Under the pieces are notes generated by a model. It did not search any database, was not told where the DNA came from, and saw only the letters and a program-made list of their open reading frames with translations. Below, one piece after another: positions 59,548 through 63,706 of a stretch of DNA of 64,000 nt. This stretch comes from Herbaspirillum aquaticum (lineage in GTDB: Bacteria > Pseudomonadota > Gammaproteobacteria > Burkholderiales > Burkholderiaceae_D), in NCBI RefSeq assembly GCF_002213425.1, contig NZ_NJGV01000025.1, positions 1-64,000 of the forward strand, read 5' to 3'. Position numbers and translations under genes: made by a program. The first letter of the stretch is position 1. Each line of letters starts with the position of its first letter.

Positions 59548-60324
59548 ATGAAGTCTCTTTACTGGATAGGCGGCATCGTCGCCGCCGGCCTGCTGGTAGG
59601 CAGCGGCGTTCGCCTGCTGGCCCACGGCGATGCCCAGGCGGCCCCGGCGACTGCCGCTGCGCCTGCTGCGGCCGCCGCTGCCCCCACCGGCGCCCCGCTG
59701 GCCGGCGCAGTTCCCGCCGTGACCGCACGCGCTGATGCCGGCAGCACCGTGGCCGGCGTGGCCGCCGCCTCCAACGGCCCCTACAAGGTCGGCGACCAGC
59801 TGCAACAAAGCCCCGCCGTCACCGACAAGCCCTACCAGGCCTCGGGCAAGATGGTGAACGGTTTCCAGGAGATCGCCTGGGAATCCCTGATCCCCAAGGA
59901 CTGGGATCCGATGGCACCCTTCAAGGGACTCAAGCTGGACCAGATGACCGATGACGATCCGCGTGCCGATGCGGCGCTGTGGAAGGCCAAGAAGTACTGG
60001 AAGGATGCGCCCGTCGATCCGGCCATGGAAGGCAAGGCGGTACGCCTGCCGGGCTTTGTGGTGTCGCTGGATCGCGAAGGCGAGGCCCTCAAGGAATTCC
60101 TGCTGGTCCCCTACTTCGGCGCCTGCATCCATGTGCCGCCGCCCCCTGCCAACCAGATCATTCACGTCAAGAGCGCCAAGGCCGTCAAGAATGTGCGCAC
60201 CATGGATGCGGTGTGGATCAGCGGCGTGCTCAAGGTGGAACGCTCGGACTCTTCCATGGGCGCATCCAGCTACAGCATGAAGGCAGTCAGCGTTGAACCT
60301 TACAGCGCACCGGACAAAGGTTGA
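59548..60324 (+). CDS. DUF3299 protein of the Zrg cluster
   Basis: A 258-residue protein anchored by an N-terminal helix (LYWIGGIVAAGLLVGSGVRLL), with an Ala/Pro-rich low-complexity segment (about 30-70) and the DUF3299 core 'EIAWESLIPKDWDP...RLPGFVVSLDREGEALKEFLLVPYFGACIHVPPPPANQIIHV'. Cys and His in GACIHVPPPP form a probable metal site. Usually lies with ABC genes of the zrg type. Last gene before the repeat array. Confidence 0.82.
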   Translation: MKSLYWIGGIVAAGLLVGSGVRLLAHGDAQAAPATAAAPAAAAAAPTGAPLAGAVPAVTARADAGSTVAGVAAASNGPYKVGDQLQQSPAVTDKPYQASGKMVNGFQEIAWESLIPKDWDPMAPFKGLKLDQMTDDDPRADAALWKAKKYWKDAPVDPAMEGKAVRLPGFVVSLDREGEALKEFLLVPYFGACIHVPPPPANQIIHVKSAKAVKNVRTMDAVWISGVLKVERSDSSMGASSYSMKAVSVEPYSAPDKG

Positions 60325-60392: not shown

Positions 60393-60460
60393 TTATCCAC
60401 ATTTTACGGGGGCAAGCTTGTGGACAAGGCTTTGACAAGCCACCCAAGCCCTTGATTCTT
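60393..60460 (+). repeat. DnaA-box-like repeat unit 1
   Basis: First box TTATCCACA at 60393-60401 (exact TTWTNCACA); second, inverted, TGTGGACAA at 60419-60427 (one mismatch). Starts 26 bp apart. Conserved downstream segment TTTGACAAGCCACCC...CTTGATT. Confidence 0.85.
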
Positions 60461-60554
60461 CAGCGTTTTTTTCTCCCGCCTCGGCTGCGCGCATTCGTGG
60501 TGCAGGCCGCTGCCGCGCGTCACCCGGCCAGGACTTGTCCCCGTCACCTGGCCG

Positions 60555-60622
60555 GATATCCACATTTTTTGGGAGCAAGCCTGTGGAGAAGCGCTGGGCA
60601 AGTCAGGCAAGGCCTTGATTGC
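60555..60622 (+). repeat. DnaA-box-like repeat unit 2
   Basis: ATATCCACA at 60556-60564, TGTGGAGAA at 60582-60590; starts 26 bp apart; core TTTTTTGGGAGCAAGCC. Unit tail CAAGGCCTTGATT. Confidence 0.9.
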
Positions 60623-60704
60623 AAAGGACTTTCCTCTACCGAGGCAGCAGGAGGCAAAAAACGGGCAGTCCGCTGCTTCCAACAAGCGTTGCACCACGCG
60701 CAAC

Positions 60705-60770
60705 GATATCCACATTTTCTGGGAGCAAGCTTGTGGAGAAGCACTTGACAAGCCACTCAAGCCATTGATT
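60705..60770 (+). repeat. DnaA-box-like repeat unit 3
   Basis: ATATCCACA at 60706-60714, TGTGGAGAA at 60732-60740; 26 bp; tail CTTGACAAGCCACTCAAGCC. Confidence 0.9.
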
Positions 60771-60887
60771 CGAAACAACTTTTCAATATCGCAACAGCGG
60801 CTGGCAAACGTCGTCAAAACAGGTGCGACCGAGGCTTTTCAGCTTGCCGCGCGCCCGAAAAGCCGCCTTGCCTGCCGCTTCACGCAG

Positions 60888-60953
60888 GATATCCACACAT
60901 TTTGGGAGCAAGCCTGTGGACAAGCTCTTGACAAGACACCCAAGCCATTGATT
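60888..60953 (+). repeat. DnaA-box-like repeat unit 4
   Basis: ATATCCACA at 60889-60897, TGTGGACAA at 60915-60923; 26 bp; core ends GGGAGCAAGCC. Confidence 0.9.
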
Positions 60954-61048
60954 AAAAAGGAAAAACCCCGCCAGACGCAAACCCGGGCAGTTTTTTGGCG
61001 AACCTGGCCATCCGCCGCAAAGCCGCGCCCAGACTGGCCGAGCGGGGT

Positions 61049-61114
61049 GATATCCACACTTTTTGGGTGCAAGCCTGTGGAAAAGCCTTGGACAAGCCAC
61101 TCAAGCCCTTGATT
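61049..61114 (+). repeat. DnaA-box-like repeat unit 5
   Basis: ATATCCACA at 61050-61058, TGTGGAAAA at 61076-61084 (exact TTWTNCACA on the reverse strand); 26 bp; core TTTTTGGGTGCAAGCC. Confidence 0.9.
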
Positions 61115-61178
61115 ATCAAGGGTTTTATGAAAAATGACGCGACATGGGCAGCAGCCTGTCCCTGGCACCGCTTGCATG

Positions 61179-61244
61179 GATATCCACATTTTTTGGGAGC
61201 AAGCCTGTGGAAAAGCGCTGGGTAAGCAGACCAAGTCTTTGATT
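61179..61244 (+). repeat. DnaA-box-like repeat unit 6
   Basis: ATATCCACA at 61180-61188, TGTGGAAAA at 61206-61214 (exact on the reverse strand); 26 bp; tail more diverged (GGGTAAGCAGACC). Confidence 0.9.
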
Positions 61245-61845: not shown

Positions 61846-62514
61846 TTACCAGACGCCTTCGATGGCCGTGGCCTGCAGCTTGATGCGCGAGACTTCGCCA
61901 TCGGCGCCTTGCAGGGCCAGGTCGTCCGGCATCGCCTTGGGCGGCTTGCGGAACCATTCCAGGCACAATTGCGACAGGTTGGTCAGCGCCTTCTTGGCCA
62001 TGAACTGCTGCAGCAGCTCGCGCGTCAGTTCCAGGTTGGAGGCAAGGTAGAAGTCTCCTGGCTTGGCCAGCGCCTGCACATCCGCGCTCATGCGCTGCAG
62101 GTCCTTCTGGAACATCTGGCGCGGCACCGGCAAGGGGTGGCCAGCCGAGACCAGCAGCTCCTGGAACAGCGGCGCCATGAAATCGAGCGCATAGCCGTCG
62201 CACTGCACCCAGGCGTGGAAGGCATCCTGGTGGCTGGTCACGCTCTGGCCGTCATCCCCCAGCGAACCGAAGGACAGTGCGCCACCGCCATCTTCGCGAA
62301 TCAGGTAGAACGCCGCACCGGCGACGGGGAAGGCATTGCGCTTGTAGAACTTCTTGAGGATCTGGGCGGCGGTGACGGAAAAGAAGAAACTGGCGGCCGG
62401 AATGTCCGCTTCCACGCTGTGCAGCACGGAATGGATGACGCGGAAGATGCGTTGGTAATCGGCCAGGGGAATCAATGGGCGCAGGTTCTGCGCGGAGGAA
62501 TGTGAGCTTTGCAT
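61846..62514 (-). CDS. DUF2026-like protein, 222 aa
   Basis: A soluble 222-residue protein: 'LIPLADYQRIFRVIHSVLHSVEADIPAASFFFSVTAAQILKKFYKRNAFPVAGAAFYLI', a 'HAWVQCDGYALDFMAPLFQEL' segment with H-x-W..D..DFMAP, and a C-terminal helical half. This resembles DUF2026; the AaFYL/HaWve/DFMaP pattern also recalls cysteine-peptidase-like folds (Cys65-type residues are not obvious here). Start ATG 62514 gives the family-like N-terminus. Function unknown. Read from the assignment as tentative. Confidence 0.65.
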   Translation of the reverse strand: MQSSHSSAQNLRPLIPLADYQRIFRVIHSVLHSVEADIPAASFFFSVTAAQILKKFYKRNAFPVAGAAFYLIREDGGGALSFGSLGDDGQSVTSHQDAFHAWVQCDGYALDFMAPLFQELLVSAGHPLPVPRQMFQKDLQRMSADVQALAKPGDFYLASNLELTRELLQQFMAKKALTNLSQLCLEWFRKPPKAMPDDLALQGADGEVSRIKLQATAIEGVW

Positions 62515-62959
62515 GGGCGCTATTTTCGCATGGAAAAGAACGGGCAAGCCGCTAGGCCGCTTCACGGGATTGCCGGACTGCACACACCCGTTGCGTGACG
62601 CGCTTTGGAACAAAAGCGGCATCACGACTTGCCGTTCCACCCTCAAGACATGTTTGCTGCGCAAAACTCTACTGCTACTGCTACTGCTACTACTTCTACC
62701 GCTACTTCAACTGCTGCTACGCACTGCAACTGCAACTACGACTGCAAATCAATTGCAAAACGAAACGACATTGGCTCACTGCTGTACTACGTACTAAGTA
62801 CTACTGACTGCTCACTGCTACTGCGGATACTTGCTGTTGTTGCAGGCACTACCCCTAATGCCACGCAACGGTACTACCTTTGCTGCTTCACTCCCCCTCA
62901 CTTCACTTCCCCTCACTTCCCCTACGATCCCTCGCCCCCAGGCACGTCTCCCCTGGTAT
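62515..62959. other. 445-bp low-complexity intergenic region
   Basis: No gene supported. Dominated by CTA/CTG/CTT triplets (62667-62840), a cluster of GTACTA motifs (about 62785-62805) and repeated CCCCTCACTT (62892-62922). Pyrimidine-rich on the plus strand; translated frames are poly-Leu or Ser/Thr and look spurious. Confidence 0.7.
62667..62720 (+). repeat. CTA/CTG trinucleotide-rich tract
   Basis: Alternating CTACTG hexamers (about four in a row) that decay into CTN triplets. Composition differs sharply from surrounding GC-rich DNA. Confidence 0.85.
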
Positions 62960-63271: not shown

Positions 63272-63706
63272 GGCTGGCTCCAAAAGCAAGATACTTGGTC
63301 AAGGTCTTGCGTGCCAGTCGTGACCCCGCTGTATGGTCGGGGGTCCGGAGCACAGACCGTGTTTCATTGGTTCCCATGGTAGTGGCCCGACGTGATCGCG
63401 AACATCGGGGAATTCCTGACCCGGCAACGTCACTTGCCAGCTCGACAGCAGCCTGGGCTCGGGCTTTGCGGCGCATCAAGCTCTGCCATGCGCCGTGAAA
63501 GTTACGTGAATTTCAAGCCCGCATGCTGCAGGGAAACAGCCGAAAAAAAACCCGCCAGGCTTGCGCGTGGCGGGTTCAGGCTCGAATTGTCCAAGTCCAA
63601 GGACGTCTGAGGAGACGCCCTCAATGTACCGGGCCATGCACCTGCTGAAAACGAAGCATTCGTCATGCGCTTATGCTCGTGGCGCATAAGCCGCACGCTG
63701 CCGCTC
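63272..63706. other. 435-bp intergenic region
   Basis: Contains the amidohydrolase terminator (63543-63577) and a GCTTATGC...GCATAAGC hairpin near 63670-63691 just after the stop. No gene was supported. Confidence 0.5.
63543..63577 (-). terminator. intrinsic terminator of the amidohydrolase gene
   Basis: AACCCGCCA...TGGCGGGTT followed on the minus strand by T8. Confidence 0.88.

Follow-up and report, generated by a model that had tools for sequence, protein, structure and literature searches.

Six copies of a unit containing two inverted DnaA-box-like sequences stand between two protein genes of Herbaspirillum aquaticum (draft genome of 5.42 Mb), raising the question of whether this array is a site for DnaA and what role it would have on the chromosome. 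Most of what is known of the sites at which DnaA is recharged or inactivated comes from E. coli. In the model given in PMC10380432 and PMC5742627, the DnaA molecules on boxes I and II of a DARS come together head to head and release ADP, with box III assisting; DARS2 is activated by IHF together with Fis. A passage of PMC10380432 mentions DARS-like sequences in many proteobacteria, and one of PMC5742627 a DARS2 spacing kept in beta- or gamma-proteobacteria near E. coli, so that DARS-like sites are to be expected in this group. The window referred to below is the whole stretch of 64,000 nucleotides that was analysed; it belongs to contig C16 of the genome.

An array of six paired DnaA-box-like sequences, each with an IHF consensus

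The array consists of six 65-bp units, all on the + strand, at 60393-61244, as seen in the sequence and with a repeat finder. The flanking genes for a DUF3299 protein (+) and a DUF2026 protein (-) both have their ends toward the array. The features are as follows.

59548-60324, + strand: gene for a DUF3299 protein (PF11736, E 1.9e-46), conserved left neighbour of the array
60393-60457, + strand: unit 1, box I 60393-60401 (strict), middle element 60407-60415, box III 60419-60427, IHF site 60445-60457 (0 mismatches)
60556-60620, + strand: unit 2, box I 60556-60564, middle element 60570-60578, box III 60582-60590, IHF site 60608-60620
60706-60770, + strand: unit 3, box I 60706-60714, middle element 60720-60728, box III 60732-60740, IHF site 60758-60770
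60889-60953, + strand: unit 4, box I 60889-60897, middle element 60903-60911, box III 60915-60923, IHF site 60941-60953
61050-61114, + strand: unit 5, box I 61050-61058, middle element 61064-61072, box III 61076-61084 (strict), IHF site 61102-61114
61180-61244, + strand: unit 6, box I 61180-61188, middle element 61194-61202, box III 61206-61214 (strict), IHF site 61232-61244
61846-62664, - strand: gene for a DUF2026 protein (PF09641, E 2.4e-88), conserved right neighbour of the array

Just past the start of the DUF2026 reading frame, a run of short CTACTGCTACTGC-type repeats occupies 62665-62830 of the window.

Each unit is composed, in order, of [AT]TATCCACA (box I), 5 bases, a middle element, 3 bases, the inverted box TGTGGAnAA (box III), 17 bases and a perfect YAANNNNTTGATW. 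Counted from the T of TATCCACA, the start positions are +13 for the middle element, which reads TGGG[AT]GCAA (CGGGGGCAA in unit 1), +25 for the inverted box and +51 for the IHF consensus. The unit starts are 163, 150, 183, 161 and 130 bp apart, the two boxes of a pair always start 26 bp apart (6/6 units), and of the twelve near-consensus DnaA boxes, all within 0.85 kb, three match TTWTNCACA strictly (60393, 61076 and 61206) and nine are one base off, all of which bears out what an earlier sequence-only reading had described. That reading had overlooked the IHF consensus, which is perfect in 6/6 units, the last one ending at 61244. The pattern YAANNNNTTGATW is the complement of the conventional WATCAAnnnnTTR, as given in a passage of PMC10380432; the E. 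coli form TAAnnnnTTGATW, given in passages of PMC8682772 and PMC4245941, misses all six sites of the window by their first base (C).

A genome-wide search for TATCCACA-N17-TGTGGA returned exactly six matches in 5.42 Mb, all in the array (reversed control, 0), and the 65-base unit used as a query against the whole genome (E up to 0.001) found the same six units and no others. A dispersed repeat, the finding that had been named as speaking against a function of the pairs, is therefore rejected for this genome.

Box offsets shared with the E. coli DARS cores

The sequence-only reading had recognised no known family that fits. This needs correction. E. coli DARS1 and DARS2 have their boxes at the offsets seen in the array: TTATCCACT, TGTGGATAA and TGTGTATTA stand at offsets 0, 14 and 26 in DARS1, TTATCCCAG, TGTGGATAA and GGTGTAAGA at the same offsets in DARS2, and box I, middle element and box III at 0/14/26 in 6/6 units of the array, with the middle element (+13 from the T) occupying the position of box II. 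The DARS cores were assigned in E. coli by locus and by box order as in PMC5742627 and PMC8682772, and the former describes the box spacing as identical in both DARS, with box I opposite to II and III. A location far from the origin is also shared, and DARS2 also involves IHF.

The two kinds of site differ in that a DARS has one core, whereas the array has six tandem units, and in that box II of a DARS is a DnaA box head-to-head with box I, whereas the middle site of the array is degenerate and not recognisable as a box. It has 4 mismatches from TGTGGATAA in all six units of the window; of the nine relatives scored, eight have 4-5 in their main arrays and G001 has 2-3. In other genera the middle site is often, in many units, a good box by sequence. 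DARS2 has a reverse IHF site at +118 with one mismatch, whereas the array has a forward site at +51 in each unit; for DARS1, no IHF site was listed in the stretch scanned. The array was not classed as a DARS because its middle box is degenerate and its IHF site is off the DARS2 position. The earlier suggestion of a 'datA/DARS-like' element is thus favoured at the level of sequence, by the DARS1/DARS2 box offsets and by the IHF consensus of every unit, without amounting to membership of the class.

Conservation of the array in the genus

A check of synteny, which had been proposed together with the array, showed that the DUF3299 and DUF2026 neighbours are common to 20 relatives, comprising nine whose flanking proteins are ~57-98% identical to those of the window (G001, G005, G006, G009, G010, G011, G016, G031 and G033) and 11 more (G002, G003, G012, G013, G015, G019, G020, G023, G024, G025 and G027). 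In G014 and G026 only the left neighbour was seen within the stretch examined, and on the short contig of G004 neither. The 26-bp spacing, also proposed for comparison, is kept in relatives, and their main arrays have 1 to 7 units, the number differing between species. The unit profile matches at least one place in 34/34 genus genomes, with weak matches and matches at other loci included. Among 89 units from 19 loci, which were selected on the box pair plus a short word in the middle, with the IHF site ignored, 57 have the IHF consensus at +51 with 0 mismatches and 85 with at most 1; the same criterion applied at 50 other offsets gave 3 matches in all.

Base conservation was compared in the colinear six-unit arrays of five species (limits of 1 mismatch in the boxes and in the IHF site; 6/6 units passed in each genome and none was dropped). 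Box I was identical in 540/540 base comparisons and box III in 530/540, the nine fixed IHF bases were 98.5% identical (of 540) and the four free IHF bases 70% (of 240). Identity was 92% in the middle element, 80% in the 17-base linker, 73% in the 15 bases past the IHF site and 56.5% in the spacers over aligned bases (71% in spacer 4). Change is slowest at the bases that would be recognised by DnaA and IHF.

Further copies of the unit were seen elsewhere in the genus. G001 has an extra seven-unit array (L087 3127-4008) with a weaker box I and a one-off IHF site at +51 in 6/7 units. A second locus with two units of the same type is present in nine genus genomes (L088 4911-5105, L089 4692-4927, L090 4409-4613), with synteny checked in three of them; the window's own genome gave no profile match to this locus.

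Matched spacers change in length by helical turns

The spacers had been called unrelated, a description that has to be revised in that the unit spacings recur in five species despite sequence drift (163/162, 150, 183/162, 161 and 130/131/141 bp). Matchable spacers of the main arrays fall into the length classes 162/172/182-183/193, 150-152/161 and 130-131/141, and spacings of the two-unit second locus into 162/172/193-194/203; the first two main spacers show almost no length variation. The eight jumps in spacer length (21, 11, 10, 10, 11, 31, 21 and 10) are close to multiples of 10.35-10.5 bp. Compared with jumps spread uniformly over 4-35 bp, this gave p ~5e-6 (1e-5 on a finer grid), and p 0.001 for the five main-array jumps alone, using six spacer groups that were assembled by hand after the lengths had been seen. 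Five of these groups come from the main arrays of ten genomes (G000, G003, G006, G010, G011, G012, G020, G023, G026 and G033), in which both neighbours were seen except in G026 (left one only), and the sixth is the two-unit locus of nine genomes, with its synteny checked in three. Ten main arrays (G001, G002, G004, G009, G014, G019, G024, G025, G027 and G031) were omitted because their spacers are not matchable one to one.

Over all arrays the period is weak (36 unique spacings, Rayleigh p ~0.086), and the R of 0.61 over 96 spacings is inflated by relatedness; a common helical phase across all arrays is thus not established. The change of matched spacer lengths in helical turns argues that the units act together on the helix.

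A separate DARS2-like pair in the genus

A pair of three-box clusters with offsets 0/14/26 was found between priA and hemE (genes checked in G006). It has a strong middle box, and its two copies are about 365-376 bp apart. A reverse IHF site with at most one mismatch is present at +117 to +119 in 24/24 clusters listed, which represent twelve loci of ten genus genomes (two genomes counted twice) chosen because the pair showed. The window's genome has such a pair at L107 4728-5130 (C65 about 190727-191125), and G006 at L097 8459-8860. At the 30 loci of the class scan, the reverse IHF pattern (at most one mismatch) occurred 20 times in 630 positions at +105 to +125 and 52 times in 81,600 positions elsewhere. 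The pair is closer to DARS2 than the array is, and by its sequence it is a strong candidate for the DARS2 of the genus. A DARS2-like element therefore appears to exist beside the array, which would be related but distinct and may do something else.

The pair was also considered as oriC and rejected, the dnaA positions, gene content and GC3 skew being against it. Distances were therefore counted from dnaA, which stands in for oriC in the position figures, the origin being taken as near dnaA. A lone three-box cluster that lacks an IHF site at +51 is present in the window's own genome (L105 5121-5153, C25 about 58120) and in G006 (L106 5650-5682, 2.23 Mb). In E. coli K-12, a second cluster, with the offsets of a DARS core and, at +108, a reverse IHF site with one mismatch, lies 316 bp upstream of the DARS2 core (L044 637-672, about 2969136), which suggests that E. 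coli too may have a pair of clusters at DARS2.

Distribution and position on the chromosome

The exact unit pattern was found in 22 stretches of an 84,980-species collection, with titles naming Herbaspirillum, Noviherbaspirillum, Caballeronia, Burkholderia, Pandoraea and Candidatus Vallotia, genera that we take all to be Burkholderiales. The three-box geometry alone (one mismatch allowed) is present in 239 of 383 class genomes (reversed control, 2 genomes); the sites concerned may be DARS, origin or other sites. The order, family and class scans for the unit required the IHF site in the pattern, and so show distribution and give no independent proof of that site: the unit with IHF at +51 was found in 34 of 399 order genomes with 2 mismatches allowed (control 1), 13 of the 34 being among 17 genomes of the same family, at up to 3 mismatches in 49 of 50 family genomes that comprise one to three contigs (controls 0), and in 10 of 383 class genomes, 8 of them outside the order (controls 0). 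No forward IHF consensus was present at +45 to +57 in the 30 class-level loci examined.

Outside the genus, clusters were picked in 19 of 43 genomes from among the places listed, and these have 1 to 8 units (4 mismatches allowed, without a control). Neighbours are held in common by 18 of the 19, being in G209 an ExbB-type gene and xseA, and none of the 19 gave a match to the window's flanking ORFs. The other genera use one locus, so that there are in the main two placements and not nineteen.

The genus arrays lie 0.326-0.363 of the chromosome from dnaA in six of seven single-contig genomes and 0.447 in the seventh. For the other genera the distance is 0.275-0.382 in 14 of the 19 clusters and 0.078-0.215 in five, with the values for G047 and G092 (three contigs) resting on one contig. 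E. coli DARS1 is 0.329 from oriC, the oriC coordinate used for the DARS1 and datA distances being one that we assumed.

Proposed role of the array and alternative explanations

The array is read here, with a confidence that is about evenly balanced, as a DnaA-IHF array that works like a DARS. It would be a non-coding chromosomal element that controls replication initiation. Laid out like an E. coli DARS core, each unit would bind DnaA at its boxes I and III, and perhaps also at the degenerate middle site, and would be bent by IHF bound at +51. The helically phased units would assemble into a larger complex that, like a DARS, would strip ADP from DnaA, so that ATP could be reloaded before the next round. 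The geometry, the fixed IHF consensus, the base conservation, the synteny and the helical-turn length changes of matched spacers are the basis in hand, from which we infer DnaA and IHF binding, cooperation of the units and an effect that runs from ADP to ATP. Genes for IHF-alpha, IHF-beta and Hda are present, past the NCBIfam cut-offs. The weak point is the middle site: if DnaA is unable to bind there, box I lacks a nearby partner, and the pair could function only across its 26 bp or through contacts between units.

The main rival is a datA-like role, in which an IHF bend would join DnaA on neighbouring boxes and ATP-DnaA would hydrolyse its ATP after initiation. E. coli datA indeed has a strict DnaA box followed by a perfect IHF consensus in the array's orientation (L046 1745 and 1810; which datA box stands at 1745 is our assignment), and the IHF sites of the array fall between the DnaA boxes of successive units. 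However, a datA-like role is somewhat unlikely: the starts of box and IHF site are 52 bp apart in the array and 65 bp in datA, the datA boxes listed include no inverted pair at 26 bp, and the distance between array and dnaA is 0.326-0.447 of the chromosome, whereas datA is near oriC (0.10). When datA is relocated to terC, PMC5742627 reports, initiation in rich medium can take place at the wrong time. Simple titration, with the twelve boxes soaking up DnaA, is rather improbable: the density of boxes in 0.85 kb would suit it, and unit number differs between species as that of a buffer could, but titration requires no fixed IHF site, no fixed 26-bp pairs and no helical-turn spacer changes, and a titration study stresses boxes near oriC in E. 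coli, unlike the array's place (PMC12371093). The constancy of the two neighbours in 20 relatives would also agree with a local or nucleoid role, in which DnaA and IHF would regulate the flanking genes or organise the chromosome, as would the nature of IHF as a nucleoid protein and the 6 terminator-like sites in the region versus 2.2 expected. Such a role is nevertheless considered distinctly unlikely, given that both neighbour genes end at the array, that one weak promoter-like site only was seen (versus 0.5 expected) and that other genera hold arrays beside different genes.

Two further roles suggested by the sequence-only reading gained little support. Transcribed stem-loop repeats are very improbable, although box I and box III are complementary and the covariation score and paired-cell share were reached by only 19 and 21 of 500 shuffles: both sides changed in 2/366 cells, the pair count was reached by 147 of 500 shuffles, and the folding z-scores of the six units (0.20, 0.07, 0.08, -0.38, -1.87 and 0.25) leave five of them no stabler than shuffles. 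The covariation is slight, and two copies of one DNA site would give likewise. With a cut-off of E 1, an Rfam search matched nothing in the array; two sub-threshold matches stand at 63542 and 63720. A secondary origin is not supported by GC content or GC3 skew, there being no AT-rich unwinding element (GC of 150-bp windows nowhere below 0.493 over the array) and no GC-skew switch at the array; in G006 the GC3 skew is negative on both sides of it, and the best-fitting origin is near dnaA. The raw skew of G006 changes sign at 0.57-0.855 Mb and 3.1-3.4 Mb, which makes skew only a weak guide, and that of G005 is irregular.

Implications for Burkholderiales

In the freely accessible literature searched, no account was found of a many-unit form with IHF at +51, and nothing on DnaA boxes in Herbaspirillum or DnaA-reactivating sequences in betaproteobacteria. 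It is conceivable, though on balance doubtful, that the array represents a further type of element for the control of DnaA, next to datA and DARS. In it, several IHF bends and inverted DnaA pairs in helical register would form a single large nucleoprotein complex. Having arrived at two unrelated loci of one bacterial family, each roughly a third of the chromosome away from the origin, the element would be duplicated late in replication and would thereby time the next initiation. If the proposal of a DARS-like DnaA-IHF array is true, Burkholderiales would possess such a control site in a naturally multiplied form, each unit with an IHF site of its own, and the variable unit number in sister species, together with the two unrelated loci, would make the contributions of box geometry, IHF, phase, dosage and position to initiation timing testable.
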